Below are positions 8,121 through 64,000 of a stretch of 64,000 nucleotides of DNA, piece by piece; position 1 is the stretch's first letter; each line of letters begins with the position of its first letter. Both the position numbers and the translations under genes were made by a program. A model generated the notes under the pieces. That model searched no databases and was not told the origin of the DNA. It was given only the letters and a program-made list of their open reading frames with translations. Source of the stretch: an uncultured Pelagibacteraceae bacterium. Its GTDB lineage: Bacteria; Pseudomonadota; Alphaproteobacteria; Pelagibacterales; Pelagibacteraceae. The DNA is taken from positions 62,001 to 126,000 of the forward strand of contig CACGJO010000001.1 in the NCBI GenBank assembly GCA_902573425.1. Reading direction: 5' to 3'.

Positions 8121-8123
8121 TTC

Positions 8124-9404: not shown

Positions 9405-9500
9405 TAATCATTTTAGATTCATAGATAAATTAATTTATGTAATTTTAGACTTTAAAGTAGGCACTAGTAAAAATTAATTGTTATGTTAATTATTGACTAA

Positions 9501-10418: not shown

Positions 10419-11138
10419 TTATTTTGTTAAAATATAATTTTCTCTTAACCGCTCAACAACTTTAAATTTATTTTTCTTAAGAAAATTTAATATTTTCTGT
10501 TTTCTTTTTTTTTGAATTTGATTGTAGGCAAGTAATTCGATGCAGATGACTTTTATATTTAATTTATTTAAGTTTATTGTAGACATCACTTCTAATTCCA
10601 AGCCCTCAATATCAATATTCAGAAAATCAATATTATAAATTTTAAATTTTTTAAGAATATTATCTAATCTTTTAGTTTTGATAATTTTAGTTTTTAAAGT
10701 ATTTAGACCAAAATTTTTTTTCATCCATATAACATGATTTTCGCTTAAAGTATTTTGTGAGCTTAAATCATGATGGTGATATAATTTAGTTTTTTTGATC
10801 TTATTTGATAAAGCAGCACATATATTAATATCTTTCGGTCTTTTAAAATTAAATAACTCGATTGTTATTGGATTTAAGTCTATGTTTAAACCACTCCATC
10901 CTAAACTATACATTTTTCTGGTATTGCTATATTTTGTTGGGTGAAAGCATCCTATGTCAACATAAGTTCCCTTATAATTACTTTCGAATAAATCTAAAAT
11001 ATTTTTTTCTTCATTAAATTGTGAGCCGCCAAAAAGATATTTAAAATTTCTAAGATAAATATTGTAAAAAAAATATACAGATTTTAAAAAAGGAAATTTT
11101 TTCGCTATTGTAAGTGACTTTGATTGTGATGACGACAT
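10419..11138 (-). CDS. FkbM-family methyltransferase
   Basis: 239-residue SAM-dependent methyltransferase. The cofactor motif is YVDIGCFHPTKYSNT, then LGWSGLNIDLNP with the ribose-binding acidic residue, and NIDFLNIDIEGLELEVM, all typical of the FkbM family. Members O-methylate sugars or small molecules, and in glycan islands they usually modify a surface polysaccharide. It is convergent with the glycosyltransferase, the two stops being adjacent. The very AT-rich coding sequence matches the rest of this island. Confidence 0.82.
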   Translation of the reverse strand: MSSSQSKSLTIAKKFPFLKSVYFFYNIYLRNFKYLFGGSQFNEEKNILDLFESNYKGTYVDIGCFHPTKYSNTRKMYSLGWSGLNIDLNPITIELFNFKRPKDINICAALSNKIKKTKLYHHHDLSSQNTLSENHVIWMKKNFGLNTLKTKIIKTKRLDNILKKFKIYNIDFLNIDIEGLELEVMSTINLNKLNIKVICIELLAYNQIQKKRKQKILNFLKKNKFKVVERLRENYILTK

Positions 11139-11147
11139 GATTAAGAG

Positions 11148-11522
11148 TTAAGTTTTGGGTTTAAATATAAGGCATAACCCGTTATTACAAAACCTTTTGC
11201 CAGTAGGCTTGGGACCATCTTCAAAAATATGGCCATGGTGACCACCACATTTTTTGCAATGATATTCTGTTCTTTCATAACCAATATGTGTATCAGTTTT
11301 AGTTTCAAAAACTCCAGGTAAAGATGAAAAAAAAGATGGCCATCCAGAGCCACTTTCATATTTCATATCTGAACTAAATAATTTAGTGCCACAACCAGCA
11401 CAATGATAATCACCATTTCTCTTTTCTTGATTTAAATGACTTGAGCCCGGTGGTTCGGTACCTTCATTCTTAAGAATGTAATTTTGTTCAGGTGTTAAAT
11501 TGTCATTCCAGTTATTTTTCAT
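11148..11522 (-). CDS. msrB: Peptide-methionine (R)-S-oxide reductase MsrB
   Basis: 124-residue repair enzyme that reduces methionine-R-sulfoxide in proteins. Two zinc CxxC pairs are seen (CAGCGTKLF and CKKCGGHHGHIF), with SGSGWPSFF and HIGYERTEYHC between them, and the catalytic Cys is in RFCNNGLCLIF near the C-terminus, where relatives have RYCINSxxLxF. A second Cys four residues later in that motif is uncommon. It stands just upstream of, and divergent from, the metY leader. Confidence 0.95.
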   Translation of the reverse strand: MKNNWNDNLTPEQNYILKNEGTEPPGSSHLNQEKRNGDYHCAGCGTKLFSSDMKYESGSGWPSFFSSLPGVFETKTDTHIGYERTEYHCKKCGGHHGHIFEDGPKPTGKRFCNNGLCLIFKPKT

Positions 11523-11613
11523 TATTTAATCTTATTTTATATCATTTTTGAGAACTTGAAATGGACCAAATTGTTATTGACTTCTTAAGGTTAAATCTAA
11601 TATAATTTGCAAA

Positions 11614-11665
11614 TTAGCGCTGATTTAATACAAATTGCGAGCGCTTTATAAAATCCGCTAAAGCG
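11614..11665 (+). promoter_or_regulatory. SAM-II riboswitch aptamer
   Basis: The stretch matches the SAM-II pseudoknot consensus: AGCGCTGATTTAA, a central loop, GCGAGCGCT closing the first helix, then TTTATAAAATCCGCTAAAG whose 3' end folds back on the loop. It binds S-adenosylmethionine. Its 3' end, CTAAAGCG at 11658-11665, is exactly complementary to CGCTTTAG at 11684-11691 inside the terminator just downstream. SAM binding would hold this end in the pseudoknot and allow the terminator to form. Confidence 0.88.
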
Positions 11666-11678
11666 ACAATCTTTCGAG

Positions 11679-11708
11679 ACCACCGCTTTAGTCGGTGGTT
11701 TTTTTTTA
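11679..11708 (+). terminator. Riboswitch-controlled intrinsic terminator in the metY leader
   Basis: ACCACCG (11679-11685) pairs perfectly with CGGTGGT (11693-11699) around a seven-base loop and is followed by about nine T. The 5' side overlaps CGCTTTAG, which can instead pair with the end of the SAM-II aptamer, giving a classical antiterminator/terminator switch. Confidence 0.92.
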
Positions 11709-11725
11709 CGAGTTAGTAAATTAAA

Positions 11726-11782
11726 GCCGGGCATTTGAACTATATTGTACGCCTGACTTTCGTCGAAGTACTAAAAAAGGAG
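11726..11782 (+). promoter_or_regulatory. SAM-V riboswitch covering the metY ribosome binding site
   Basis: The element contains the SAM-V core GCATTTGAACTATATTG, the closing TACGCC, a small hairpin, and AGTACTAAAAAAGG, which forms the pseudoknot and merges with the Shine-Dalgarno AAGGAG at 11777-11782. The metY ATG is 7 bases later. SAM-V is known from marine alphaproteobacteria and acts on translation by tying up the ribosome site when SAM is bound. Together with the SAM-II/terminator module upstream this gives two successive SAM checks on one gene. Confidence 0.9.
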
Positions 11783-11789
11783 AAAAAAA

Positions 11790-13085
11790 ATGGCTGATAA
11801 AATAAAAAATCCAGAGACTATAGGTCTTCATGGTGGTGAATATAGAAGCGATCCAGCAACGACTGCTGTGGCGGTTCCTATTTATCAAACAACCTCGTAT
11901 CAATTTAAAGATGCTAAAACAGCGGCAAATTTATTTGGACTTAAAGAGGCTGGAAATATTTACACAAGAATAAACAATCCTACTTGCGATATACTTGAAA
12001 AAAGAGTTGCGGCTTTAGAGGGTGGATTAGCTGCAGTTGCAGTTGGTTCTGGACAAGCTGCTTCTGCTTTCTGTGTACAAAATGTATGTCAAGCAGGAGA
12101 CAATATCGTTTCCTCAACTGATTTATATGGTGGAACAGTTAACTTATTTAAAAATACATTAAGCATGCAAGGTATCGAAGTAAGATTTGCTGATCCAAAA
12201 GATCCAAAAAACTTTGAGAAGCTTACTGATGAAAAGACAAGAGCATATTATGGTGAATCTTGTCCTAATCCGTACTTAAGAGTGTTTCCAATTAAAGAAG
12301 TTGCTGACATTGGAAAAAAACATGGGATACCTTTAATTATAGATAATACTGCTGCACCAGTAATTTGTAAGCCGCTTGAACATGGCGCAACTATAGTAAT
12401 GCATTCGCTTACAAAATATATTGGAGGACACGGTACTTCTATTGGTGGAATAATTGTTGATGGAGGAACATTTGACTGGGTAAAAAATGCCAAGAGACAA
12501 CCTTTGTTCAACACACCTGATCCAAGTTACAATGGTGCTATTTGGGGAAGAGATGTTCCAAAAATGACAGGAGCTAATGTTGCTTTTGCAGTAAGAGCAC
12601 GAGTTGTTCTTTTAAGAGACCTTGGTGCTCCACTATCTCCTTTCAATGCATTCCAAATTATTCAAGGCTTAGAAACCGTAGCACTAAGAATGAAACAGCA
12701 CTGCGCAAACGCAGAAAAAGTTGTTAAATTTTTAGAGTCGGAGAAAAAAGTTAAGAATGTAATTTATCCAACAAATCATCAAGGAGAAATAAGAGATAGA
12801 GCCAAAAGATACATGAAAGGTGGTTATGGATCTTTAGTTGGTATGGATTTGGGAAGTTTGGAAGCTGGAGCTAAATTTATTGATAATTTAAAACTTCTTT
12901 ACCACGTTGCCAACATTGGTGATGCAAGAAGTTTAGCTATACACCCAGCATCTACAACCCACAGTCAGCTAAATGAAAAACAATTAGCTGAAGCTGGTGT
13001 CACGCCTGGATATGTTAGACTTTCAATTGGAATAGAACATCCAGACGATATTATTGCTGATATAAAACAGGCATTAGCTGCATAA
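11790..13085 (+). CDS. metY: O-acetylhomoserine sulfhydrylase (homocysteine synthase) MetY
   Basis: PLP enzyme of the Cys/Met metabolism family, 431 residues, the usual length for MetY (longer than cystathionine gamma-synthase). It makes homocysteine from O-acetylhomoserine and sulfide in the cytoplasm. The PLP lysine is Lys209 in MHSLTKYIGGHG, preceded by IIDNTAAPVICKP; SLAIHPASTTHSQL lies near the C-terminus and binds the carboxylate. The start follows AAGGAG by 7 bases. Expression should be repressed by SAM at both transcription and translation through the SAM-II and SAM-V elements in its leader. Confidence 0.96.
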   Translation: MADKIKNPETIGLHGGEYRSDPATTAVAVPIYQTTSYQFKDAKTAANLFGLKEAGNIYTRINNPTCDILEKRVAALEGGLAAVAVGSGQAASAFCVQNVCQAGDNIVSSTDLYGGTVNLFKNTLSMQGIEVRFADPKDPKNFEKLTDEKTRAYYGESCPNPYLRVFPIKEVADIGKKHGIPLIIDNTAAPVICKPLEHGATIVMHSLTKYIGGHGTSIGGIIVDGGTFDWVKNAKRQPLFNTPDPSYNGAIWGRDVPKMTGANVAFAVRARVVLLRDLGAPLSPFNAFQIIQGLETVALRMKQHCANAEKVVKFLESEKKVKNVIYPTNHQGEIRDRAKRYMKGGYGSLVGMDLGSLEAGAKFIDNLKLLYHVANIGDARSLAIHPASTTHSQLNEKQLAEAGVTPGYVRLSIGIEHPDDIIADIKQALAA

Positions 13086-51995: not shown

Positions 51996-52856
51996 CTATT
52001 TGCTCGTTACAATAACTGCTCCTTGAATCTCAACTGCCAAGTTATTATTTCTTCTTACTTTTTCGGTTAGTTTTGCTTGCATATTATCTTTTTCAAATGC
52101 AACATCTGATTTACCATCTTGCATTGTTCTAATATTTTCCCTTGGCGGGTAAGTAAATAATACCTCTGCTTTGTAAATATCTTCAACGCCCTGGTTGTCT
52201 GACTTATCCAGAGAAAAATTAAATTGCACTACTGGATTAATATTAAATTCAGATCCATAAATCATTCCTTTAGAGTCTGTAGTTGCTTTTTCAGCTTTCC
52301 ATTTATATCCCTCTAGATTTAAATTAATCCATGGATGATATGGAACTTGCGTTGTTAAATTATAGTCCCAACCACTTAAGACTTTTTCTTCAATTCCATC
52401 AACTGTTTTCATTCTGGTTAATCCTTGATAATAATTTGTGCTTAAATCCACTAGTGACGATTTAGTTTCCAAACCTAATCCTAATCTTTTATGTCCTTCT
52501 AATATATCTGCATCTAAAAAAACATTAGCTCCATACATAAAAGATTGATCTTCGTTTAATTCTCTTAAACCAAAACCTAAATTTCCAGTTAATCTTCCTG
52601 AGCTATTTTTTTCCTCATTTCTTAAACTAAATTGAGTAAAAACATTTGAATCATCAGTTTTTTCTATACTTCGAACTCCTAGAATTGAAAAATTGATATT
52701 ATCATTATCTGCATCATTTAATTCAACTCCGACTTCAGTTATACCTTCTCCTGGTATCCAGCCTGCAATGATTTCTGATATTCTATTTTCAAGATCAGCA
52801 TGTGAAGCTGACATAAAAAAAATTGAAGCAAAAATTAATGACAATATTTTTCTCAT
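51996..52856 (-). CDS. Inverse autotransporter beta-barrel protein lacking a passenger
   Basis: 286 residues with a signal peptide (about 1-20, ending SASHA). The body matches the intimin/invasin-type barrel (IAT_beta): FMYGANVFLDADILEGHKRLGLGLE at about 105-130, then VDLSTNYYQGLTRMK, then SGWDYNLTTQVPYHPWINLNLEGY, a pattern of aromatic-ended beta strands, and a closing LTEKVRRNNNLAVEI that corresponds to the end of the barrel domain. True intimins continue with hundreds of residues of Ig-like passenger; this one stops about ten residues after the barrel. It should sit in the outer membrane. The next gene, 2 bases on, encodes a secreted protein. Confidence 0.8.
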   Translation of the reverse strand: MRKILSLIFASIFFMSASHADLENRISEIIAGWIPGEGITEVGVELNDADNDNINFSILGVRSIEKTDDSNVFTQFSLRNEEKNSSGRLTGNLGFGLRELNEDQSFMYGANVFLDADILEGHKRLGLGLETKSSLVDLSTNYYQGLTRMKTVDGIEEKVLSGWDYNLTTQVPYHPWINLNLEGYKWKAEKATTDSKGMIYGSEFNINPVVQFNFSLDKSDNQGVEDIYKAEVLFTYPPRENIRTMQDGKSDVAFEKDNMQAKLTEKVRRNNNLAVEIQGAVIVTSK

Positions 52857-52882
52857 TAAATGACCATATACATATACATTAG

Positions 52883-52948
52883 TTGACGCAATACCGACGC
52901 ACTGAAGAACCAGTTTTGGGCTTTAGGTTGTAAAATAATTATTATATA
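52883..52948 (+). repeat. Repeat B, copy 2
   Basis: Matches 51231-51287 with a few substitutions; the identical core is at 52917-52943. It has the same two GACGCA words; the palindrome is imperfect here (AGAACCAGTTTT). It lies upstream of the barrel gene, so the two copies bracket the barrel and its partner. Confidence 0.85.
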
Positions 52949-52973
52949 ACAAGGATTAATGAAACAAAGTTAA

Positions 52974-53000
52974 CGGCACCTGGCAACAGAACGCCCCTTC
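52974..53000 (+). repeat. Repeat A, copy 2 (tmRNA-end hairpin)
   Basis: GGCACCTGGCAACAGAACG followed by CCCCTTC is identical to copy 1 over about 25 bases, apart from the first stem bases. Weaker similarity to the tmRNA flank continues for about 20 bases downstream. No tag frame or acceptor half accompanies it, so it is not a second tmRNA. Confidence 0.85.
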
Positions 53001-53043
53001 CTAATTCTTTATTCGTGAATCTTTCCAATGCTTTCTAGGGAGT

Positions 53044-53751
53044 TTAATACTTTTTATAAACTGCTAAAATACCTTTTCCTAATTTATATCTTAAAATGAA
53101 GTCTAAAATAATTGATATTGGTGTGAAAAACTTATCCCATACAAATATTTTAAATTTAGAGGGATATTTTTCTTTTTTAAATAACATCTTATTTAAAAAA
53201 TATAGTGCATATCCTGACGAATCTAGAAACTTTAAATCTATTTGTCTCAAAGATTTAAATTTATTTTTAAAAAAATCTAATTCATATCTTCTATAATGGC
53301 CTACAATTCTATCTAAATTACCATACATCTTACTGTGAGCGGGAACCAATATAATAAGAAATCCATTTTTTTTTAATCTTTGAGTAGCTGCTTTTATTTC
53401 AGAATGGTCATTTTTAATATGCTCAAGAACGTGCAAATACAAAATTGCATCAAATTTTTTGTCAAAATTTTTTACATCTTTATTTACAATATTTATTTTT
53501 TTATTGATTTTAAATTTTTTATTGAGTGTTGAGATATTCTTTTTATCTCTTTCAGTTAATGTAGTTGAGAAAATTTTTTTACTCATATAATGGCGAGTAA
53601 AACTTCCACAGCCAGCTCCAACTTCAAGTATATCTCCGTATAGGTATCTTTTAATAAAACTTAAACAATATCTAATATGAAAATCTGCACCATCAAATGC
53701 TTCAGTTATTTTTTCGGGATAGATAAAAACATTTTTTTTCTTTTTTTTCAT
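53044..53751 (-). CDS. Class I SAM-dependent methyltransferase
   Basis: 235 residues. Cofactor loop GDILEVGAGCGSFTRHYMS at about 34-52, then DAILYLHVLEHIKNDHSEI at about 95-113 and a strand with GFLIILVPAHSKMYGNLDRIVGHYRRYE. This set occurs in methyltransferases found beside glycosyltransferases. The substrate is unknown. It is alone between two copies of the tmRNA-end repeat, in the opposite orientation to the tmRNA. Confidence 0.82.
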   Translation of the reverse strand: MKKKKKNVFIYPEKITEAFDGADFHIRYCLSFIKRYLYGDILEVGAGCGSFTRHYMSKKIFSTTLTERDKKNISTLNKKFKINKKINIVNKDVKNFDKKFDAILYLHVLEHIKNDHSEIKAATQRLKKNGFLIILVPAHSKMYGNLDRIVGHYRRYELDFFKNKFKSLRQIDLKFLDSSGYALYFLNKMLFKKEKYPSKFKIFVWDKFFTPISIILDFILRYKLGKGILAVYKKY

Positions 53752-54126
53752 AAATTATGGTTTTAATTTTTTGTCTAAATGGATAGTTCAGCCTAAGTCT
53801 ACTATATTTCAATTTATATTTTAGTAATTGATAACATTAATTTTTTAATCATTTTAAAATCTTAACATAAAACCTTGCCGCCCTATAGCCACCCTAAGCA
53901 TTAAATTTACAAAGATTTAATGAAAAAAACCTTATGTTATATTACTAAATTCAAGGGGCCTGGCAACAGAATGCCCCTACTCATTTAACTAAATATTCTA
54001 CAATTCTGAAGAATTTCATATTTAATTAAAATAATGTTAAAAAAATAAAAGATGGTAATATAAACACTGTTTTTGAGAAAGAATTTTTAATAACAATAGA
54101 AATATAAGAATTTACTCAAATCATGT
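53752..54126. other. Gene-free AT-rich spacer with repeat A copy 3
   Basis: 375 bases with no plausible coding frame. It holds the third copy of the tmRNA-end hairpin (53955-53978), a C-rich patch (GCCGCCCTATAGCCACCCTAAG at 53878 onward in two blocks) and otherwise poly-A/T stretches. Promoters for the flanking divergent genes probably lie here, but none could be fixed. Confidence 0.6.
53955..53980 (+). repeat. Repeat A, copy 3 (tmRNA-end hairpin)
   Basis: GGGGCCTGGCAACAGAAT and GCCCC form the same stem as the tmRNA 3' hairpin, with a loop shorter by two bases and one substitution (T for C) before GCCCC. It closes the region of inserted genes; the polysaccharide island starts beyond it. Confidence 0.8.
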
Positions 54127-54693
54127 ATGATAAAAAAAACCACTATAAAATATACTGATTACTTAAATAGTTTTATAAACAATCTAATAGAAGATACAAA
54201 TATAGAAGAAAAACTAATTAAAATTAAAAATACTCTATTGACTACAAAAAAAGAAAATTCAAAGGTCTTAATTTTTGGCAATGGTGGTAGCGCTGCTATC
54301 GCAAGTCATTTTAGTGTCGATCTTACAAAAAATACAAAAATTAAATGTCAAAATTTTAATGAAGCAGATTTACTTACATGTTTTTCAAATGATTATGGTT
54401 ACGAAAACTGGGTTGCGAAAGCAATTGAATTTTACGCTGAAAGAAAAGATGTTATTATTTTTATTTCTTCAAGTGGTAAATCTAAAAATATGCTGAGGGG
54501 GGTTAAGATGGCAAAAAATAAAAAGATATCAAAAATTATAACTTTAACAGGCGGAATAAAAAATAATCCATTATCAAAATTAGGTGTAATAAATTTAAAA
54601 GTTAATAGTAAAATTTATAACCATATTGAAAATGTTCATCAATTTTGGCTATTAAGTATTTGTGATAGTATTAAATTAAATAAGCTTAAGTAA
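54127..54693 (+). CDS. gmhA: SIS-domain phosphoheptose isomerase (GmhA-like)
   Basis: 188-residue isomerase of the SIS fold. FGNGGSAAIASHFSVDLTKN at about 50-69 is the family signature, with SSSGKSKNMLRGVKMAKNK at about 117-135 and HQFWLLSICDSI at the C-terminus. It converts sedoheptulose 7-phosphate to D-glycero-D-manno-heptose 7-phosphate. With GmhB and the HldE-like gene it forms a heptose pathway. Its end overlaps the convergent gmhB gene by 8 bases. Confidence 0.88.
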   Translation: MIKKTTIKYTDYLNSFINNLIEDTNIEEKLIKIKNTLLTTKKENSKVLIFGNGGSAAIASHFSVDLTKNTKIKCQNFNEADLLTCFSNDYGYENWVAKAIEFYAERKDVIIFISSSGKSKNMLRGVKMAKNKKISKIITLTGGIKNNPLSKLGVINLKVNSKIYNHIENVHQFWLLSICDSIKLNKLK

Positions 54694-55192
54694 GAAACCT
54701 GTCAATTTTTTTAATTTGAGTGTAAAAATTTTTTTTAGGATATTCAAAATATAATTTACTTTTTTTTGCTGCTGAAGAGTCAGATTTTCTGTCACCTATC
54801 ATAAAACTTCTTTTCAGATCAATTCTCCATCTTTTCTTTATATCTTCTATCATTTTATTACCTGGCTTTCTTAAATTAGTTTTTTTTCTATATTTTTTTA
54901 TTTTTCCATTTGGATGAAAAGGGCAATAACTTATTTTATTAAATTTAACCCCCTTTTTTTTGAAAAAAATAATTATTTTTTTTGTCAAATTTTTATAATT
55001 TTGTTCAGTAAAAAATCCTCTGGCTATTCCTGATTGATTTGTAACGATAAAAATAAGATATTTTTTTTTTAATAAAAATCTTAATCCTCTAATTACACCT
55101 TGTTTTACCTTAAAGTTTTTGAAATCATGAATATAACCCAAATCATGATTTATAACTCCATCTCGATCTAAAAAAGCTGCGGGTTTTCCCAT
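54686..55192 (-). CDS. gmhB: D-glycero-D-manno-heptose 1,7-bisphosphate phosphatase (GmhB-like)
   Basis: 168-residue HAD-family phosphatase. The catalytic pair is in FLDRDGVINHDLGYIHD (Asp 9 and 11), with IVTNQSGIARG and a Lys/Gly segment LRKPGNKMIEDIKKRW followed by MIGDRKSDSSAAKKS. A Cys/His zinc site is partly seen (YCPFHPNGK), though fewer Cys than in E. coli GmhB. It removes the 7-phosphate from heptose bisphosphate. It lies between the isomerase and the membrane protein in the opposite direction. Confidence 0.85.
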   Translation of the reverse strand: MGKPAAFLDRDGVINHDLGYIHDFKNFKVKQGVIRGLRFLLKKKYLIFIVTNQSGIARGFFTEQNYKNLTKKIIIFFKKKGVKFNKISYCPFHPNGKIKKYRKKTNLRKPGNKMIEDIKKRWRIDLKRSFMIGDRKSDSSAAKKSKLYFEYPKKNFYTQIKKIDRFLT

Positions 55193-55251
55193 TTATTAAA
55201 ATATGTTTTGTTTTTTTTAATTTATACTTTAATAATTATTATTTATTATAA

Positions 55252-56937
55252 ATGAAATCAATTTATTATTCACACATAGTTGGTTTATTAGTTCTATTTT
55301 TATATTATTTCTTTTCTTATTCAATTTTTGGAAAAATTATTATTGCTCCTCATGATAATTTAGATCACGGTACAGTAATAGATAGTGTAATTTCAAAAAT
55401 ATTTAATGGTGATTTTGATGCGGTCTCGATTTTTTTGGGAGGTAGTTTAAAGTGGTATTTTCTTGAAGAAATTTTATTTCCAATAAATTTTTTACATTTG
55501 ATATTGGAAATAAAAGCTTTTTATTTTGTAGAGGACGTTTTAAAAAAAATTATTTCGTATTTTTGCTTTTACATTTTAGCTCGAAAAATAACTAATAATT
55601 ATTTTTATTCCTCAATATCAGCAGTTTTATATACTTCAGTGACTCAAATGTTTATTGCAACCTCGGGTTTAGGTTTGGCTGTAATGCCTTATCTACTTTA
55701 CCTTATGATTTCAGTAAAACATTTAAAATTTAAACATTATTTTTTAATTTTTTTTTTAGGTTTAAATATTTCTATAGTGCACGACTATTTGGCATTAATT
55801 TTAATTTTACCCCTGGCTAAAATTATAAACGAAAGTTTAAATTACAAAAAAAGTTTACAAATAATATCAATATTATCAATTGGAATTATATTATCCAATT
55901 TTCCTTTATTTCTTGTAAGTGCTTTAGAAGAAACTCATAGAGCAGATTTTGTTAGGCCCAATCTAATAGATAATATTTTAATTTCACTAAACAATCTTTT
56001 CAATTTATTTAGTTCAGATTTTAACTTATTATTTTTTCTTCCTTATAAAGTTTTAATAATTTTAATATTTTTATCTTTTTTTATCTCAAAAAATAATACC
56101 TACAAAAAACTAGTAATTTTTTTGATATCATTATTTTTTTTAAAAATTATTTTAGGGTCTAATATTGTTGGATACTTGACAGATTTTATTGTTTTTTTAA
56201 AAGGATTTAATTTTGCTAGAATAGACAAAATTTTTCCATTAATTATATGTTTGCTTTTATTACAATTATTAAAAGAAATTAACAATAAAAATTTATCAGT
56301 TATTCTAACTGCAATAGTTTTGTTAAGTTCAATATTTATTCAAATAAAGACACCTAAGATTGAACTCATTAAAATAAACCTTAGAGAAAATATAAACGAG
56401 GAAAAATTTGAAGAGTTGAAATATCACATGCGCGAAGGTGAAATAATTAATTTTATTAAGGAAATTACAAATAAAAGTAATTATAGGGATAAATTTAAAT
56501 TTTCTTTAAACAGTTCAAATTCTTTTAATGGGTATTATAGATTTGATGATTTTAATAACCTAAAAAAAATAATTAATTATGAAGAAAGAATTATGTCAAT
56601 AGGTATAAGTCCAATGATAGCAGCTATGAATGGTATTAAGGTAATAGATGGGTATCATACATTATATCCTAAAAGTTATAAGAAAAAATTTCGAAAAATT
56701 ATACAGAATGAGCTTGAAAAGAATAATATGTACAAAAATTATTATGATCAGTGGGGAAATAGACTAAGCATATTTTTTACTAATAAAAACGATATTGATA
56801 TAAATTTTTTAGCCGCAAGGTCTATTGGTGCAAAATATGTGCTTTCTACTTTCAAAATTAAAAAAAAAGAACTAATATCTAGATGTGAACCTTGCTATGA
56901 CTCTAGGAACTTTTACTTATACGAAATTGAAGAATGA
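55252..56937 (+). CDS. Polytopic membrane protein of unknown function in a glycan island
   Basis: 561 residues; about 11 hydrophobic spans in the first 370, then a soluble C-terminal domain of about 190 residues rich in Lys, Asn and aromatic residues. The layout (APHDNLDHG near the N-terminus between the first spans, then many spans and a tail) resembles membrane glycosyltransferase-like proteins of the GT-C or DUF6044 kind, but no catalytic motif can be named. It overlaps the HldE-like gene by 4 bases. Confidence 0.6.
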   Translation: MKSIYYSHIVGLLVLFLYYFFSYSIFGKIIIAPHDNLDHGTVIDSVISKIFNGDFDAVSIFLGGSLKWYFLEEILFPINFLHLILEIKAFYFVEDVLKKIISYFCFYILARKITNNYFYSSISAVLYTSVTQMFIATSGLGLAVMPYLLYLMISVKHLKFKHYFLIFFLGLNISIVHDYLALILILPLAKIINESLNYKKSLQIISILSIGIILSNFPLFLVSALEETHRADFVRPNLIDNILISLNNLFNLFSSDFNLLFFLPYKVLIILIFLSFFISKNNTYKKLVIFLISLFFLKIILGSNIVGYLTDFIVFLKGFNFARIDKIFPLIICLLLLQLLKEINNKNLSVILTAIVLLSSIFIQIKTPKIELIKINLRENINEEKFEELKYHMREGEIINFIKEITNKSNYRDKFKFSLNSSNSFNGYYRFDDFNNLKKIINYEERIMSIGISPMIAAMNGIKVIDGYHTLYPKSYKKKFRKIIQNELEKNNMYKNYYDQWGNRLSIFFTNKNDIDINFLAARSIGAKYVLSTFKIKKKELISRCEPCYDSRNFYLYEIEE

Positions 56938-58466
56938 AAAATATTAGAGGAAATAAAATTTTAAGTGAAAAAGGATTGAAAGAATTAAGAAAATATTTTT
57001 TAAAAAAAAAAATAGTTTTATGTCACGGTGTTTTTGATATCCTTCATATTGGACACATCAATTATTTCAAAGAGGCAAAAAAATTAGGAGATGTATTAGT
57101 TGTCTCTGTAACTGACGATGAATATGTAAACAAAGGTCCTGGAAGGCCAGCGTTTCCAATACAAAGTAGGTTAAAATTTTTATCAGAAATACAAACAATA
57201 GATTTTGTTTATGTTAGTAAATCACCTACTGCTAGAAACGTAATATTGAACCTAAAACCTCTTTATTATTGTAAAGGAAATGATTATCCAATTAAAAATA
57301 CAATTCTAGATGATAATTTAAAAAGTGAAATTAATGCAGTGAAAAAAATAAAAGGTAAATATAAACAAATCAATCAAGCAATGTTTAGTTCAAGTAAAAT
57401 TATAAATGATTATAATCTTCAAAATTTAAATAATGATGCAAAAAAATATATTACTGAAATTAGAAAAAAAAATAGCTTAAGCTCAATATTTAATGATATT
57501 AGTAAAATTCTTAATAAAAAGGTATTGGTGCTTGGTGAAACTATAATCGATAAATATGTTTCAACCGAAACGATTGGAAAATCAGGTAAAGAACCTATTT
57601 TAGTTATAAAACCGATTAAAGAAACAAATTTCCTAGGTGGTGCAGCTTATGTTGCAAATTTGTGTTCGTCTTTTTGCAAGACAACAAAATTAATTAGTTT
57701 TATAGGAAGTAGAAATAATGAGAAAAATTTTATTTCAAAAAAAATTAATAAAAAAGTAATAACAAAATTTTTTAAAAAAAATAATTCACCAACAATTAAT
57801 AAGATGAGATACATCGATGAGTATAGAAAAACAAAAATATTAGGTGTGTATGACTTGAATGATGATCCTATAAATCTTAAAGAAGAAAGAAGTTTTTATA
57901 ATGAAATCAAGAAAAATATAAAAAAATTCGATATTGTTATAGTTTTAGATTATGGTCATGGGATATTTACAAAAAAAATTAGAAAACTTTTAAAAGAAAA
58001 CGGAAAGAAAATTTATTTAAACACACAAATAAACTCATTTAATAGAGGTTACCACACCTTATTTAATTATAATAAAATTAATTCTTTAATTATAAATGAA
58101 AGTGAACTTAAATATGAACTTAAAGACAAAAATTCTAATATACAACATCTTGTTAAAGGCTTACGAAAAAAAGTTAAAGTTGATAATATTATTATTACCA
58201 GAGGAAAAAATGGTTCGGTAATTGTAAGTAAAAATAATAAAAATATTATTCAGTGTCCGGCGTTTAATCTGAATAATAAAGATACTGTTGGAGCTGGGGA
58301 CACATTTTTTGCAATGAGCGCAATTGCCTTATCTGTTAATATTGATCCTAAAATTAGTTTGTTATTGTCTTCTATTGCAGCAGACTTCTCAATAGATCAA
58401 ATAGGAAAAGAGAGTATTTTTGATTTAAATAAATTAAAAAAATATTTGAGTCATGTTTTAAGATAA
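56934..58466 (+). CDS. HldE-like bifunctional heptose kinase/nucleotidyltransferase with swapped domain order
   Basis: 510 residues in two parts. The N-terminal 150 residues are a nucleotidyltransferase domain with GVFDILHIGHINYFKEA (HIGH at about 38-41). The rest is a PfkB-family kinase: VLVLGETIIDKYVSTE near 195, GGAAYVANLCS near 233 and DTVGAGDTFFAMSAIALS near 450. In E. coli HldE the kinase comes first and the transferase last, so the order is reversed. It would phosphorylate heptose 7-phosphate and activate the 1-phosphate with a nucleotide. Which nucleotide, ADP or GDP, is not readable. Confidence 0.8.
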   Translation: MKNIRGNKILSEKGLKELRKYFLKKKIVLCHGVFDILHIGHINYFKEAKKLGDVLVVSVTDDEYVNKGPGRPAFPIQSRLKFLSEIQTIDFVYVSKSPTARNVILNLKPLYYCKGNDYPIKNTILDDNLKSEINAVKKIKGKYKQINQAMFSSSKIINDYNLQNLNNDAKKYITEIRKKNSLSSIFNDISKILNKKVLVLGETIIDKYVSTETIGKSGKEPILVIKPIKETNFLGGAAYVANLCSSFCKTTKLISFIGSRNNEKNFISKKINKKVITKFFKKNNSPTINKMRYIDEYRKTKILGVYDLNDDPINLKEERSFYNEIKKNIKKFDIVIVLDYGHGIFTKKIRKLLKENGKKIYLNTQINSFNRGYHTLFNYNKINSLIINESELKYELKDKNSNIQHLVKGLRKKVKVDNIIITRGKNGSVIVSKNNKNIIQCPAFNLNNKDTVGAGDTFFAMSAIALSVNIDPKISLLLSSIAADFSIDQIGKESIFDLNKLKKYLSHVLR

Positions 58467-58476
58467 TTTAATTTTT

Positions 58477-59421
58477 ATGAAAATAATAATTACTGGTGGA
58501 GCCGGATATATAGGCACAAAATTAACATCATCATTACTATCCGATGGGCACGAAGTTACTGTTATTGATAACTGTTGGTTTGGAAATTTTCTTAAAAAAA
58601 ATAAAAAATTTAAACTTATTAAAAAGGATATAAGAAAATTTAATGAAATAAATATTTCTAGCATAGACGTTTTAATACATTTAGCTAACATTGCTAATGA
58701 TCCGTCAGTGGAATTAAATCCAAATCTATCTTGGGAAGTTAATGTTTTAGCATCTAAACAAATAGTAGAACATGCTATAAAGAAAAAAATTAAAAAAATA
58801 ATATTTTTTAGTTCAGGAAGTGTCTATGGTGTAAAAAAAGAAAAAAATGTTACTGAGGAACTAAGTCTAAAACCTATATCAATATATAATAAAACAAAAA
58901 TGATTGCAGAAAGAGTTTTTCTAAGCTATGGGGACAAGATTGATATAATTTGTTTAAGACCTGCAACAGTTTGTGGTCTTTCGAAAAGGTTAAGATTAGA
59001 TTTAACAGTTAATAAATTAACATTTGACGGTTTTTTTAAGAGAAAAATATTTGTAGATGGTGGAAAACAAATAAGACCAAATGTAAATATTAACGATCTG
59101 GTACGTGTTGTGAAACATTTTTTACTTAAAAAAAAATTTAATCATTCTATTTACAATGTGGGATTTGAAAATCTGAGTATCAAAAAAATAGCCCAAAAAA
59201 TCGCTGCTAAAACAAAAGCTAAAATTATAATAAAAAAAAAAACAGACATACGCTCTTACAGACAGGACTCGAGAAGACTAATTAAGACTGGTTTTAAGCC
59301 AAAATTTAATATTGATCTGGCAATAGACGGACTAATAAAACATTTTTCATCAAAAAAGGTTCATAATTTTGGTGTAAAGAACTTTAACTTAAAGCAAATG
59401 AAAAAAATTAATGTCAAATAG
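58477..59421 (+). CDS. NAD-dependent sugar epimerase/dehydratase
   Basis: 314-residue extended SDR enzyme acting on a nucleotide sugar. Coenzyme loop ITGGAGYIGTKLTSSLL at about 4-20, DVLIHLANIANDPSVE, the SGSVYG catalytic Ser region and YNKTK (Tyr/Lys pair) at about 127-131. The end has the typical SYRQDSRRLIKTGFKPKF. It does not show the conserved features of HldD, so I do not call it the heptose 6-epimerase. It is followed after overlap by a methyltransferase gene. Confidence 0.85.
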   Translation: MKIIITGGAGYIGTKLTSSLLSDGHEVTVIDNCWFGNFLKKNKKFKLIKKDIRKFNEINISSIDVLIHLANIANDPSVELNPNLSWEVNVLASKQIVEHAIKKKIKKIIFFSSGSVYGVKKEKNVTEELSLKPISIYNKTKMIAERVFLSYGDKIDIICLRPATVCGLSKRLRLDLTVNKLTFDGFFKRKIFVDGGKQIRPNVNINDLVRVVKHFLLKKKFNHSIYNVGFENLSIKKIAQKIAAKTKAKIIIKKKTDIRSYRQDSRRLIKTGFKPKFNIDLAIDGLIKHFSSKKVHNFGVKNFNLKQMKKINVK

Positions 59422-60082
59422 AGATAATAGAGAAATTAATTTATTAAAAAATTATCCAAAATCAAAAAGGAATGTTTCAGAGCGTGGACAATCTAAAACG
59501 AAGGAACAACAAGAACTGGCAAGAAAGTTTGGGAGAGATTTCTTTGATGGTGATCGTTCTAATGGGTATGGTGGATATCATTATAATGAAAGATTCTGGA
59601 AAAATGTAATACCAGATTTTGTAAAACACTATAAACTTAAGGATGGAGATAAGATTTTGGATGTGGGTTGTGGTAAAGGTTTTATGTTATTTGATTTTTA
59701 CAAATATAATCCAAATTTTGTATTAGAGGGAATTGATATTTCAGAATATGCAATTGATAATGCAAAATCTGAAATAAAAAATTTTGTTAAAACTGGAAAC
59801 GCAAAAGAATTACATTACGATGATAATTTTTTTGATTTAGTTATATCAATTACTACAGTGCATAATTTAGATATAGACGAATGTAAATTAGCTTTAAAAG
59901 AAATAGAGAGGGTCTCAAAAAAAAATAAATTTATTACAGTTGATGCCTATTCAAATCAAGAAGAGAAAAAAATGATGTATGAATGGAATTTGACAGCAAA
60001 AACAATTTTACACACTGATGAGTGGAAAAAAGTATTTCAAGATATTAATTATTCTGGAGATTATTATTGGTTTAAACCATGA
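59411..60082 (+). CDS. Class I SAM-dependent methyltransferase
   Basis: 223 residues. SAM loop KILDVGCGKGFMLFDFY at about 80-96, EGIDISEYAIDNAKSE and FDLVISITTVHNLDIDE. An N-terminal extension of about 60 residues precedes the catalytic domain (SERGQSKTKEQQELARKFG). It overlaps the epimerase by 11 bases and the E1 alpha gene by 4 bases, so all are one operon. It probably methylates a sugar or an amino group on it. Confidence 0.82.
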   Translation: MSNRDNREINLLKNYPKSKRNVSERGQSKTKEQQELARKFGRDFFDGDRSNGYGGYHYNERFWKNVIPDFVKHYKLKDGDKILDVGCGKGFMLFDFYKYNPNFVLEGIDISEYAIDNAKSEIKNFVKTGNAKELHYDDNFFDLVISITTVHNLDIDECKLALKEIERVSKKNKFITVDAYSNQEEKKMMYEWNLTAKTILHTDEWKKVFQDINYSGDYYWFKP

Positions 60083-61047
60083 AAAAAAATAACTTTTATA
60101 AAGAAATTTACAGATTACAAAAAACTATAAGATTAACAGAAAATAAAATAGCAAAAAATTATAAAAAATATAAAATGCGTTGCCCTACACATTTATCTAT
60201 TGGTCAAGAAGCGGTGGCAGCTGCAAGTGGATTAGCACTTAAAAATAATGATATTTCAATAAGTTATCATCGATCTCATGCTCACTACATAGCTAAAGGC
60301 GGAAATATAAAAAAATTATTTGCTGAACTTTTTGGTTTTAAAGAGGGTTGTAGCAAGGGAGTTGGTGGCTCAATGCATTTAATTGATGTAAAAAAAAAAT
60401 TTTACGCCAGTACAGCAATAGTCTCCAACTCTATTCCAGTGGGAGTTGGCATAGCATATTCTTTAAAGTTAAATAAACAAAAGAATATAGTTTGTATATA
60501 CATTGGTGACGCGTCTTTAGAGGAGGGAGTATTTTACGAATCTTTAAATTTTGCGATAATTAAAAAATTACCTGTAGTATTTATTTGTGAAAATAATTTT
60601 TATTCTGTTTATACACATTTAAAAGATAGACAACCAAAAGACAGAGAGTTTTATAAACTAGCTAATTCGTTAGGAGCTAAAGGATATAGATTGAGGCAAA
60701 ATAATCCTTTTAAACTTTTTAAAGAATTAAAAAAAATAAATGAAAAAGTTAGAAAAAATCCTTTTCCACATTTTATTGAAATTAAAACTTACAGGTATCT
60801 TGAACACTGCGGCCCTAATGATGATACTAATTTAGGATATAGAACAAATTCTGAGCTTAACAAATGGAAGAAAAATGACACTATAAACTTTTCTGCTAAT
60901 TATTTGGTTAAAAAGAAGATTATGACAAAGGAAAAAATATTAAAATTAGATCAAGAAGTAAAAAAACAAATAGACTCTGATTTTGACTCAATGAAAAGAC
61001 TGAGATCTCCTAAATTTAAAGATATAATGAAACTAACCTATAGGTAA
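60079..61047 (+). CDS. Thiamine-diphosphate dehydrogenase E1 component, alpha-subunit-like
   Basis: 322-residue homologue of the alpha subunit of 2-oxo acid dehydrogenase E1. The ThDP motif is GDASLEEGVFYESLNFAIIKKLPVVFICENN (GD at 143, NN at 172-173), with SYHRSHAHYIAKGGN and a GVGGSMH segment before it. No E2 or E3 is present here, and the setting is a surface sugar cluster, so it may act on a sugar or in making an unusual substituent rather than in central metabolism. It is separated from the beta gene by 2 bases. Confidence 0.87.
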   Translation: MKKNNFYKEIYRLQKTIRLTENKIAKNYKKYKMRCPTHLSIGQEAVAAASGLALKNNDISISYHRSHAHYIAKGGNIKKLFAELFGFKEGCSKGVGGSMHLIDVKKKFYASTAIVSNSIPVGVGIAYSLKLNKQKNIVCIYIGDASLEEGVFYESLNFAIIKKLPVVFICENNFYSVYTHLKDRQPKDREFYKLANSLGAKGYRLRQNNPFKLFKELKKINEKVRKNPFPHFIEIKTYRYLEHCGPNDDTNLGYRTNSELNKWKKNDTINFSANYLVKKKIMTKEKILKLDQEVKKQIDSDFDSMKRLRSPKFKDIMKLTYR

Positions 61048-61049
61048 AA

Positions 61050-62096
61050 ATGGCAATCACTTTTGCACAAGCAATTAATAAAGCTCTACATGAAGAAATG
61101 AAAAGAAACAAAAATCTAGTGTGTTTTGGGCTAGGAATTAATGATCCTTTGAGATTTTTTGGAACGACTAAAAATTTAAAAGAAAAATTTGGAGATGAAA
61201 GAGTTTTTGAAACCCCCACTTCTGAAAATGCAATGACTGGTGTAGGTGTAGGTATGTCTATACACAAAAATCCTTGTGTCATGATGCATCAAAGACTTGA
61301 TTTTTTTTTATTAGCTATGGATCAATTAGTTAATAGTGCAGCAAAATGGCATTATATGTTTGGAGGTCAAAAATCTGTACCAATTACAATTAGGCTTATT
61401 GTTGGAAAGGGTTGGGGTCAAGGTCCAACACATTCTCAAAGTTTACAAAGTTGGTTTGCCCACATACCTGGACTAAAAGTGGTAATGCCATCACTACCAA
61501 ATGATGCCTACAATCTTTTAAAATCATCAATAAGGGATCCTAATCCAGTAATATTTATTGAGCATAGGTGGTTACATGAAATTGAAGAGAAGAAAATATT
61601 AATTAAAGACTCAAAAAAAAATATTGGGACCAAGCTTTTAAACAAAGGTAGAGATCTAACAATTCTTTCTTATTCTTTATCTACTATAGAAATTTTATCA
61701 ATGAAAAAGGCTTTATTTGATAATAATGTTTCCTACGATCATATTGATATAGCAACTTTAAAACCGTTAAATTTAAACCTTTTGAAAAATTCACTGAAAA
61801 AAACAAAAAAATTACTAATTGTAGATACTATTTCACATCCAATTTGTTCAATAGGATCAGAGATATTATCACAAGTCTTTTTAGACAAAAAGATTAAGCT
61901 TAAAAAAAACCCTATTCTAATTTCTTTGCCTGATATCCCTACTCCTACAAGTTTTTTTTATACAAAAGATTTTTATGTCAGCAAAAAGAAAATATTTAAC
62001 TCTATTGAAAAAATACTGGAAAGAAAATTAAGATATAATTTAGATTTAAATGAAATACATGATGTTCCGAATAAAAATTTTAAAGGTCCATTTTAG
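61050..62096 (+). CDS. Thiamine-diphosphate dehydrogenase E1 component, beta-subunit-like
   Basis: 348 residues. Typical beta-subunit parts: ETPTSENAMTGVGVGMSI with the catalytic Glu near 57, FFLLAMDQLVNSAAKWHYMFGGQ, VPITIRLIVGKGWGQGPTHSQSLQSWFAHIPGLKVVMPS and LTILSYSLSTIEIL in the C-terminal transketolase domain. It should form an alpha2-beta2 complex with the preceding product. Follows it by 2 bases; the next gene starts 4 bases on. Confidence 0.88.
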   Translation: MAITFAQAINKALHEEMKRNKNLVCFGLGINDPLRFFGTTKNLKEKFGDERVFETPTSENAMTGVGVGMSIHKNPCVMMHQRLDFFLLAMDQLVNSAAKWHYMFGGQKSVPITIRLIVGKGWGQGPTHSQSLQSWFAHIPGLKVVMPSLPNDAYNLLKSSIRDPNPVIFIEHRWLHEIEEKKILIKDSKKNIGTKLLNKGRDLTILSYSLSTIEILSMKKALFDNNVSYDHIDIATLKPLNLNLLKNSLKKTKKLLIVDTISHPICSIGSEILSQVFLDKKIKLKKNPILISLPDIPTPTSFFYTKDFYVSKKKIFNSIEKILERKLRYNLDLNEIHDVPNKNFKGPF

Positions 62097-62100
62097 TTAA

Positions 62101-63105
62101 ATGAAAAAAAAAATTTTGGTGCTAGGTAGTTCAAGTTTTTCTGGAGCTTCTTTTATAAAACACCTGCTAGAAAAAAATAATTTTGAAATATTTGGAACTT
62201 ATAGAAAAAATAAAAAAAAACCCCTACTTCCTTATAAGTTTTCAAAAAATTACAAAACTTTTAAAAATTTTCGAATCGATTTTTCAAAAAAAAACAAATT
62301 ATTAGAAAAATTAATCTTGAAAATAAAACCAGAATATATTGTTGACTTTGCTTCAATATGTATGGTTAATGAAAGTTGGGCAAATTCTGATTATTACTAC
62401 AAAGTAAATGTTTCATCAAAAATAAGTTTAATTAAAAGTATATGTAAATATAATTTTTTAAAAAAGTATATCTACATATCTACCCCCGAAGTATTTGGAT
62501 CTTCCCAAAAATTTATTGATGAAAATTATTCTAATTATAATCCAAGTACACCGTATGCTAATTCAAAACTTTTAGCTGAAATAATATTAAAAAATTTTCA
62601 AAAAAAAAATTTAGTTCCTTTAATAATAGCACGTTTTTCAAATTTTTATGGCCCAGGACAACCGCTATATAGATTAATTCCAAAAATAATTGCATGTATA
62701 GATAATAACAAAAAATTTCCAATACAAGGAAATGGTAAGGCTAAGAGAAATTTTATTTATTCAAATGATTTTTGTGATGGTATATACAGAACTATTGTTA
62801 AGGGGAAAGTTGGAAAAATTTATCATTTTTCTGGTAGTGAGTTCAAAAGCATTTTAGAGATAATCAATGCAGTGTGCGACTTAAAATCTCATAAAATAAC
62901 AAATCTTATAGTAAGAAAGAAAGCTAGAATAAATGAAGATTTAGTCTATAAACTAAGTTCAAAAAAAACTGAGAAAGAATTAAAGTGGAAACCAAAGTTT
63001 AATTTAAAAAGAGGCTTGAAAGAAATGATAATCTACCATAATAGACACTTTAAAAAAATTGCAAATAATGAACTTATATATTTAGATAAAAATTTGAAGA
63101 AATAA
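62101..63105 (+). CDS. NAD-dependent nucleotide-sugar epimerase/dehydratase
   Basis: 334-residue extended SDR. Coenzyme loop VLGSSSFSGASFIKHLL at about 6-22, FGTYRKNKK (a GDP-mannose 4,6-dehydratase-like RxxR region), VDFASICMVNESWANSDYYYKVN, STPEVFG and YANSK with the catalytic Tyr/Lys, then ARFSNFYGPGQPLYRLIPKI. The dehydratase reading is favoured because a DegT aminotransferase follows directly, the usual pair that makes an amino-deoxy sugar. Confidence 0.85.
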   Translation: MKKKILVLGSSSFSGASFIKHLLEKNNFEIFGTYRKNKKKPLLPYKFSKNYKTFKNFRIDFSKKNKLLEKLILKIKPEYIVDFASICMVNESWANSDYYYKVNVSSKISLIKSICKYNFLKKYIYISTPEVFGSSQKFIDENYSNYNPSTPYANSKLLAEIILKNFQKKNLVPLIIARFSNFYGPGQPLYRLIPKIIACIDNNKKFPIQGNGKAKRNFIYSNDFCDGIYRTIVKGKVGKIYHFSGSEFKSILEIINAVCDLKSHKITNLIVRKKARINEDLVYKLSSKKTEKELKWKPKFNLKRGLKEMIIYHNRHFKKIANNELIYLDKNLKK

Positions 63106-63108
63106 TTT

Positions 63109-64000
63109 ATGAAAAACTTTTTACCACAAGATTATAAAAAAAATCAAAAATTAAAAATAAACCATAGCTATTTAATCGAGCAGTTTGCTGATTACTCAAA
63201 TATTTTTAAAGAAGTCGAAAAAGTTGTAAAAAAAGGAGATTACACTTTAGGTAGTGAAGTTGATAAGTGTGAAAAAAGTTTTGCAAAAAGAACTGGCGCT
63301 AAGTTTGCAATAAGCGTTGGTAATGGAACGGATGCTTTACTGCTTGCCTTGAAAGCTTTGAATATAGGAAGTGGGGATGAAGTAATTACAGTTCCATACA
63401 CTTTTATAGCTACAGTTGGGTCTATCGTAACTGCTGGTGCCAAACCTGTCTTTGTAGATACAAAGTTTGATTACAATATGGATGAAACTCTTGTTGAAAA
63501 GGCTATAACTAAAAAAACTAAAGCTATTATGCCTGTTCACTGGGCCGGAAGACCTTGTGAAATGGATAAAATATATTCTATTGCAAAAAAGTATAAATTA
63601 CATGTGGTTCAAGATAGTGCACATATAATTGGAGCTAAATTTAAGAATAAACATTTAGTAAACTTTGGCGACGCTTGTACATATAGCATGCATCCTCTTA
63701 AAAATTTAAATGTATGGGGTGATGGAGGTTTCATAGTAACTAATAAAAAGCAACTAGCAAAGAAACTTTTTTTATTAAGAAATCATGGCTTAAAAAACAG
63801 AAATACCTGTCAGATTTTTGGTTATAATTCTCGTTTAGACACAATTCAGGCTGCAGTTGCTAATTACAAAATGAAAAATAAACTAGATAATATTACAAAA
63901 AAAAGAATTAATAACGCAAGAGCACTTGATCGCTTACTATTAAAAAATAAAAATGTTGAAACAATTAGAAGGTACAAACACTTAAAAGAAGTATTTCACT
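63109..64000 (+). CDS. DegT/DnrJ/EryC1/StrS sugar aminotransferase, C-terminus beyond the window
   Basis: 297 codons are present from the ATG 3 bases after the epimerase stop; the gene runs off the right edge. Fold I motifs: AISVGNGTDALLLALKAL at about 67-84, VPYTFIATVGSIVTAGAKPVFVD and VVQDSAHIIGAKFK. The PLP lysine is present: Lys198 in YSMHPLKNLNVWGDGG, so this is a true aminotransferase, unlike the DegT-fold protein at 8124. It should transaminate a 4-keto or 3-keto nucleotide sugar made by the preceding dehydratase. Confidence 0.92.
   Translation, partial: MKNFLPQDYKKNQKLKINHSYLIEQFADYSNIFKEVEKVVKKGDYTLGSEVDKCEKSFAKRTGAKFAISVGNGTDALLLALKALNIGSGDEVITVPYTFIATVGSIVTAGAKPVFVDTKFDYNMDETLVEKAITKKTKAIMPVHWAGRPCEMDKIYSIAKKYKLHVVQDSAHIIGAKFKNKHLVNFGDACTYSMHPLKNLNVWGDGGFIVTNKKQLAKKLFLLRNHGLKNRNTCQIFGYNSRLDTIQAAVANYKMKNKLDNITKKRINNARALDRLLLKNKNVETIRRYKHLKEVFH

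Follow-up and report, generated by a model that had tools for sequence, protein, structure and literature searches.

What is activated by a protein that carries the two domains of the heptose enzyme HldE in reverse order? The question is raised by a 64,000-nucleotide stretch of DNA, here called the window, from an uncultured Pelagibacteraceae bacterium (contig CACGJO010000001.1, positions 62,001 to 126,000), in which a nucleotidyltransferase (NT) domain is fused ahead of a PfkB-type kinase. The reading favoured here, to which a probability of roughly 0.6 is assigned, is that the fusion acts as the activating enzyme, an anomeric kinase and nucleoside diphosphate (NDP)-sugar synthase, of a cluster-specific surface sugar and not of ordinary inner-core heptose. 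An initial annotation of the locus had allowed that the product could differ from ordinary activated heptose, and this is favoured by the position of the protein in a sister clade to HldE, the presence of a separate HldE-type kinase in other genomes, a different set of neighbouring genes and the replacement of conserved residues. The fusion and its halves are as follows.

56934..58466, plus strand: NT-PfkB fusion, the feature under study; single open frame from ATG to stop, 510 amino acids
57003..57404, plus strand: NT half, residues 24-157, HIGH at 38-41 (Pfam PF01467, TIGR02199); HxGH kept in 116/119 fusions
57516..58406, plus strand: PfkB kinase half, residues 195-491, catalytic D456 (Pfam PF00294, TIGR02198); D456 kept in 119/119 fusions

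Domains, scores and active sites

The open reading frame (ORF) overlaps the preceding one by four bases, and the following ORF begins 11 bases past its last base. CTP_transf_like (PF01467) covers residues 30-157 (3e-13) and PfkB (PF00294) residues 195-491 (1e-20), both above the gathering threshold, which together with H38-I-G-H41 and G453-A-G-D456 places the halves in the HxGH nucleotidyltransferase and PfkB/ribokinase superfamilies. The kinase-first order of HldE is thus not found in the fusion; the initial annotation, which had read the opposite of the E. coli order from a HIGH motif near residue 38 and a GAGDTF motif near 450, was correct on both the order and the motifs, the latter spanning residues 453-458. 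The reversal is not a local accident, because 99 proteins, collected by similarity to the window fusion, share the NT-kinase order; the kinase-NT order was counted in two, the HldE proteins of E. coli and Sagittula, both added as references.

The best NCBIfam match of the fusion is the HldE model (NF008454/PRK11316) at 177.7 bits, short of the curated cut-off of 521, with E. coli HldE itself scoring 886.3. Scores against the HldE kinase-domain (TIGR02198, 148.2 bits, cut-off 345) and NT-domain models (TIGR02199, 93.7 bits, cut-off 181.5) likewise fall short, and the ribokinase model TIGR02152 (58.6 bits) ranks below all three. An AlphaFold2 model built from 40 aligned relatives (mean predicted local distance difference test score, 88; predicted template modelling score, 0.80) found chains of Burkholderia cenocepacia HldA as its top seven fold matches in the PDB (E 2.7e-24 to 2.8e-23), with ribokinase behind at 1e-18. 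The HldE-like identity proposed at the outset therefore stands: the grouping of the kinase half with ribokinases, which had been named as the observation that would count against it, did not occur, and profiles, trees and kinase fold are all nearest to HldE/HldA. Identity as a ribokinase or another sugar kinase was rejected on profile scores, tree and order of fold matches.

The catalytic parts, which had been thought complete, are so: the catalytic residues tested, those known from HldE, are intact in the fusion (H38, G40, H41, E391, D450, G453, G455 and D456). Among 119 reversed fusions (118 distinct) gathered by similarity to the window protein, E391 and D456 are invariant and HxGH is broken in three, from loci L082, L120 and L127, where it reads HPGV and the second His is lost. 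Each of these has a free NT gene directly upstream of the fusion.

L082, 1465-1986 and 1977-3503: free NT and fusion
L120 and L127, 9941-10414 and 10411-11955: free NT and fusion

Because every fusion with a broken HxGH has such a partner, the pairs suggest that NT activity is needed. They may also be a natural case of the shift of that activity to a separate gene.

When the 119 fusions are compared with 36 HldE/HldA kinases (HldE numbering), several positions are conserved in the majority of each group, among them G17, D22, G51, G52, K106, R108, G155, E198, G236, D258 and G261-D264. HldE residues R31, E35, N55, Q115 and D177 are mostly replaced in the fusions by G, K, A, K and N; the window protein has G, K, Y, K and N, with Tyr and not Ala at the N55 position. 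We take N55 to be the counterpart of the Asn with which ribokinase contacts ribose, and the other replaced positions (R31, E35, Q115 and D177) would also face the substrate. In the NT half, N346 is His in 115/119 fusions and N375 is Thr in 113/119. By motif these correspond to the Asn residues of the TNG and NSD motifs of HldC, which docking places at heptose-1-phosphate according to the accessible excerpt of a study of that enzyme (PMC7993394). Hence not every position conserved in HldE, some of them predicted sugar contacts, is retained in the fusion; Lys is still present in both the KG and the KGG motif. Conserved chemistry with a partly changed pocket would be the expected appearance of an enzyme with a new substrate, and is not proof of one.

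Lineage, coexistence with HldE and distribution

In a tree of 73 kinases, 43 reversed fusions formed one clade (bootstrap 100; Shimodaira-Hasegawa-like approximate likelihood-ratio test, SH-aLRT, 97), sister to a clade of 27 HldE/HldA kinases whose support (94/81) is slightly below the 95 mark; three other PfkB kinases, on long outgroup branches, lay outside both (99/95). The fusion is accordingly a sister of the HldE/HldA clade and not a member of it. Three further long outgroup rows and a long kinase-only row, G050_K2, had been dropped after a first tree, which placed G050_K2 within the reversed kinases and gave HldE/HldA an SH-aLRT of 98. Genome G050, which carries a full fusion, also holds a kinase-only relative of 344 amino acids in which no NT was found (L049:9319-10353). 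A quick, midpoint-rooted tree of NT halves placed 42 of 43 fusions together with four free NTs in one group (SH-aLRT 96), leaving L048 outside. Because both trees put the reversed halves outside the HldE groups, we regard the protein as most likely an independent fusion that arose in a sister lineage, rather than a shuffled HldE. That a local HldE had swapped its domains was rejected, the clade being sister to HldE and not within it and the window's own genome, 79.5% complete, yielding no HldE.

The fusion is found in 32 of 120 Pseudomonadota genomes, a sample dominated by a few families, including the present one (best copy of at least 333 bits). Each of the other 31 also has a separate HldE-type kinase match (27 exceed the TIGR02198 cut-off, another three reach 327-345 bits and the last is a fragment of 169 bits), and because of this the fusion is a second system beside HldE and not a replacement for it. 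No HldE was found in the window's own genome, which is 79.5% complete and in which the second match reached 28 bits.

That genome is SAR11-like (about 1 Mb, low guanine-plus-cytosine (GC) content), and its best match and many of those following in a named collection are Pelagibacteraceae. A scan of 101 relative genomes found a near full-length fusion (at least 280 bits) in 15 of 61 from the same family, with fragments in two more (G010 and G014). The other family of the order yielded one fusion of 31% identity (G079), one broken fusion (G064) and three genomes (G074, G076 and G094) with separate adjoining kinase and NT genes in place of the fusion, beside which GmhB occurs in G074 and G076. 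In a wider scan of GTDB contigs at least 270 relatives were confirmed, of which 80 were kept. Those drawn in the tree come from Pseudomonadota, Bacillota, Bacteroidota, Cyanobacteriota, Nitrospirota, Planctomycetota, Omnitrophota, Fidelibacterota and a Yanofskybacteria bin, although many carriers are metagenome-assembled genomes and single phylum placements may be contamination. Named strains with the fusion belong to Bradyrhizobium, Skermanella, Paramagnetospirillum, Solidesulfovibrio and Azospirillum. The fusions of Solidesulfovibrio and Azospirillum are plasmid-borne and both are annotated only as 'PfkB family carbohydrate kinase'. The domain content is already known and the annotated relatives examined bear generic names; a literature search by title, with most subscription journals outside its scope, turned up none that deals with the reversed fusion or the genes clustered around it.

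Phage records matched in 39 cases, two of them covering 80% of the query and all below 60% identity. A mobile or viral origin was rejected on these matches; the one cyanophage examined carries separate NT and kinase genes. In that phage, Synechococcus phage Sf-FS3 (L143:7998-9190), the adjoining NT and PfkB genes occur with carbamoyltransferases and a gene annotated as phosphoheptose isomerase. On a Pseudomonas aeruginosa plasmid (L142:1925-10613), a free NT near the fusion's NT family lies with a glycoside hydrolase 65 gene, two aminotransferase genes, an SDR gene and an MFS gene, in an arrangement resembling an amino-sugar cluster.

Gene neighbourhood and the GmhA-like isomerase

The genes around the fusion in the window are listed below.

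54127..54693, plus strand: SIS-domain sugar-phosphate isomerase, GmhA-like variant (D65, E172, L180 in E. coli GmhA numbering; family profiles and alignment)
54686..55192, minus strand: GmhB-like HAD phosphatase (TIGR00213, 137.5 bits, cut-off 149.6)
55252..56937, plus strand: large DUF6044-family protein, possibly a membrane glycosyltransferase (PF19510, 2e-44)
58477..59421, plus strand: NAD-dependent epimerase/dehydratase SDR0, the commonest fusion neighbour in the SAR11 and broad sets (profiles, locus counts)
59411..60082, plus strand: S-adenosylmethionine-dependent methyltransferase (Pfam)
60079..61047, plus strand: thiamine diphosphate (ThDP) enzyme, E1 alpha-like subunit (PF00676, 1.3e-53)
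61050..62096, plus strand: ThDP enzyme, E1 beta/transketolase-like subunit (PF02779, PF02780)
62101..63105, plus strand: NAD-dependent epimerase/dehydratase, weak SDR1 match of 149 bits (profiles, locus counts)
63109..64000, plus strand: DegT-type aminotransferase, extending past the window end (ORF and scans of the contig beyond)

The cluster also includes a methyltransferase ahead of the isomerase and, past the window end, a family-2 glycosyltransferase, two small proteins, a 205-amino-acid protein without Pfam match and a zinc dehydrogenase. The GC content of the four bins at 52-64 kb is 24-27%, against 31-35% across most other bins, and stays at 21-30% up to contig base 142,000, so that GC gives no right-hand edge. 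Within this low-GC stretch (window 52000-64000 and G000:C1:126264-129495), the family-2 glycosyltransferase, the two small unassigned proteins and the DUF6044 protein form a set suggestive of a gtr-type decoration module. A second low-GC dip (26.7%), at 8000-12000, contains a DegT-like aminotransferase. In a Pelagibacteraceae bin with a fusion of 57% identity (L053), the isomerase, GmhB, fusion, SDR0, E1 alpha, E1 beta, SDR1 and DegT genes follow the window's order, but nine other ORFs separate GmhB from the fusion and no methyltransferase is labelled between SDR0 and E1 alpha.

As the initial annotation had noted, HldD is missing from the window: nothing exceeds the TIGR02197 cut-off (274.6) there or elsewhere in the 79.5% complete genome, whose best match, outside the window, scores 127.2 bits. 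SDR0 was rejected as HldD on its score of 72.8 bits. The further suggestion that the adjacent GmhA and GmhB simply support heptose activation did not hold up, given that the isomerase is a variant with changed active-site positions, GmhB is seldom near the fusions of relatives, and the fusion belongs to a sister lineage found beside a separate HldE-type kinase. Both genes score below their curated cut-offs, the isomerase reaching 85.4 bits against 209.45 for TIGR00441. At E65, Q172 and H180, which we take to be functional positions of GmhA, it has D, E and L. Among 34 distinct SIS proteins from fusion loci, D replaces E65 in 33 and E replaces Q172 in 33; H180 is kept in 20.

The neighbourhoods of the two kinds of enzyme were compared within 8 kb on either side in 20 genomes that carry both, using 19 HldE loci; the control locus L208 was left out though its kinase ORF is present, and as it has HldD, WaaF and WaaC, its omission counts against the favoured reading. 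HldD-like genes occur at 16 of the 19 HldE loci, WaaF at 12, WaaC at nine, GmhB and SIS at six each, SDR1 at one and ThDP genes at none, whereas none of the 20 reversed loci has HldD, WaaF, WaaC or GmhB within that distance and ThDP genes occur at 12, SDR1 at 10, SIS at five and SDR0 and DegT at one each, figures to be read with the knowledge that neighbour profiles were built from reversed-fusion loci and those for HldD, WaaC and WaaF from E. coli, each favouring its own kind of locus. A further neighbour group (cluster 11), with genes annotated as radical SAM among its members, is present at 11 of the 20 reversed loci.

The broad set of 80 loci has SDR0 at 64, SDR1 at 59, ThDP at 55, SIS at 39 and DegT at 34, and in 14 of them the isomerase lies immediately downstream of the fusion. 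The 16 SAR11-order loci, two of which come from one genome (G039), have SDR0 at 15, SDR1 at 13, DegT at 11, ThDP at 10 and SIS at one; flanks are truncated on short contigs. GmhB is near the fusion at 2/16 SAR11 and 9/80 broad loci. Association with ThDP genes and absence of HldD are the sole neighbour traits that hold across all three sets, the partner set otherwise shifting between lineages. Upstream of the fusion at two loci (L044:11600-12401 and L045:11628-12430) are a MarR_EPS regulator (TIGR04176) and an unassigned 165-amino-acid protein, labelled in seven and eight of the 16 SAR11-order loci, respectively.

Fusion and isomerase may be far apart, by 56 kb in G007, and were therefore also compared by genome. 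Counting variant isomerases above 200 bits as high-scoring, the 61 same-family genomes comprise nine with both, six with the fusion only, four with the isomerase only and 42 with neither (one-sided Fisher test, 1.3e-4, or 5.4e-4 with the two fragmentary fusions added), a result that is supportive only, as the test ignores genome relatedness and incompleteness. Lower-scoring SIS forms show no link with the fusion (p 0.47).

Proposed function and comparison with known systems

In the proposed pathway the GmhA-like isomerase would supply an aldose phosphate, the kinase half would phosphorylate C1, probably in the beta position as in HldE, the GmhB-like phosphatase, where present, would take off the terminal phosphate, and the NT half would join a nucleotide to give an NDP-sugar, which the adjacent SDR enzymes, ThDP pair and DegT aminotransferase could then remodel. 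The ThDP pair could either build the carbon chain before activation or add a branch after it. That the replaced residues alter the substrate is our inference, and so are the reaction order, the phosphorylation at C1, the choice of nucleoside triphosphate and the sugar itself, which may be a higher-carbon one.

Several observations weigh against this activating role in a cluster-specific sugar. The fusions keep two further residues predicted to contact heptose-1-phosphate in HldC, the Lys of KG (112/119) and that of KGG (118/119); the HldC contacts come from docking, and the substrate-facing role of the kinase positions is putative. ThDP genes are not near the fusion at 6/16 SAR11, 25/80 broad and 8/20 Pseudomonadota loci, and SDR0 and DegT are each near one of the 20 Pseudomonadota fusions. 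The isomerase lies within 8 kb at just 1/16, 39/80 and 5/20 loci of these sets, its co-occurrence with the fusion is subject to the limits of the Fisher test, and no high-scoring variant was found in six genomes with the fusion, among them one that is 99% complete, although G048, another of the six, has a lower-scoring D65/E172 form. Moreover, neither sugar nor nucleotide can be read from sequence, and the product may be a heptose, an octose or another sugar.

A heptose product is possible, and action on heptose 7-phosphate in the manner of HldE would account for HldE models being the best matches, HldA the nearest solved fold, GmhA-like and GmhB-like genes lying near the fusion here and in L053, L047, L085 and L115, and the retained KG and KGG Lys residues. 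We nevertheless consider it rather unlikely, as both halves lie outside the HldE group, HldE-conserved positions are replaced, a separate HldE-type kinase is present in all 31 other Pseudomonadota fusion genomes and no HldD or WaaC/WaaF neighbour occurs at the 20 reversed loci. Alternatively, kinase and NT might activate a hexose, pentose or cyclitol with no need of an isomerase, the GmhA-like and GmhB-like genes serving another branch of the cluster. Such a role would suit the frequent absence of isomerase and phosphatase near the fusion and the free NT beside the glycoside hydrolase 65 gene on the Pseudomonas plasmid, but seems improbable in view of the co-occurrence of fusion and variant isomerase in same-family genomes and their immediate adjacency at 14 of 80 broad loci. 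A single active half with a structural relic attached, as the HPGV fusions with their upstream NTs might suggest, is very improbable when the window protein and 116/119 fusions retain every catalytic residue tested in either half.

If the fusion does activate a cluster-specific sugar, a more specific pathway can be offered tentatively, and with less confidence. The reversed fusion could be the signature gene of a pathway, widespread and not yet described, that leads to an activated amino sugar of the higher-carbon or branched (C7-C9) kind. In it a two-subunit ThDP enzyme would add a C2 unit, the GmhA-like isomerase would yield an aldose phosphate, the fusion would convert this to an NDP-sugar, and SDR and DegT enzymes would finish it. 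Such a route, present in at least nine phyla, would be a cell-surface counterpart of lincosamide octose synthesis. Bradyrhizose was weighed as a candidate, since Bradyrhizobium carries the fusion, and was neither adopted nor rejected; in the accessible excerpt of a paper on photosynthetic Bradyrhizobium strains, an eleven-gene cluster is described and the word transketolase does not appear (PMC4743980).

Naming by best hit would label reversed fusions as heptose enzymes. ADP-heptose is, according to published abstracts, sensed by innate immunity, and a separate lineage with other partners calls for caution in predicting it from such fusions. These relatives are widespread, seemingly as enzymes of a different, uncharacterised sugar pathway, and suggest that SAR11-type ocean bacteria, bradyrhizobia and Clostridia have an activated sugar yet to be characterised, for the tracing of which a compact gene set can now be named.

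Among known systems, E. coli HldE (b3052), the heptose 7-phosphate kinase/heptose 1-phosphate adenylyltransferase, resembles the fusion in its two domain families, sister halves, catalytic residues and, in the window, the GmhA-like and GmhB-like genes nearby. It differs in that the fusion has the reversed order, model scores between one third and one half of the cut-offs, replacements at several conserved positions, no HldD or heptosyltransferase neighbours and a separate HldE-type kinase alongside it in other genomes. The kinase-only HldA of B. cenocepacia (PDB 4e84) provides the top fold matches, at about 20% identity and without an NT domain. The NT-only enzyme of Burkholderia pseudomallei (PDB 5x9q, an entry titled 'putative cytidylyltransferase', which we take to be HldC) shares the NT family and the Lys-Gly of KG and KGG, but its TNG and NSD motifs, as given in the accessible excerpt describing HldC, become xHG and TxD in the fusion (PMC7993394). 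The gene clusters that NCBI terms 'sporadic carbohydrate cluster' are also comparable: neighbour groups whose sampled members match TIGR04323 and TIGR04324 lie near the fusion at 9 and 10 of 16 loci in the SAR11 set and at 24 and 28 of 80 in the broad set, respectively; unlike these, neither the window nor the contig up to base 143,000 has a gene labelled with either model. The lincosamide octose pathway (LmbR, N, P, K, O, M and S), as described in the accessible portions of two papers, proceeds through a transaldolase, C8 isomerase, kinase, phosphatase, guanylyltransferase, epimerase and aminotransferase (PMC4351081; PMC12945683). It differs from the fusion cluster in that LmbR is a transaldolase and LmbO a guanylyltransferase, and no such fusion appears in the table of the former paper (PMC4351081). 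The likeness is one of logic, in the succession of a C-C-bond enzyme, isomerase, kinase, phosphatase, NT, epimerase and aminotransferase, and in this respect the pathway would be the nearest characterised counterpart known to us.

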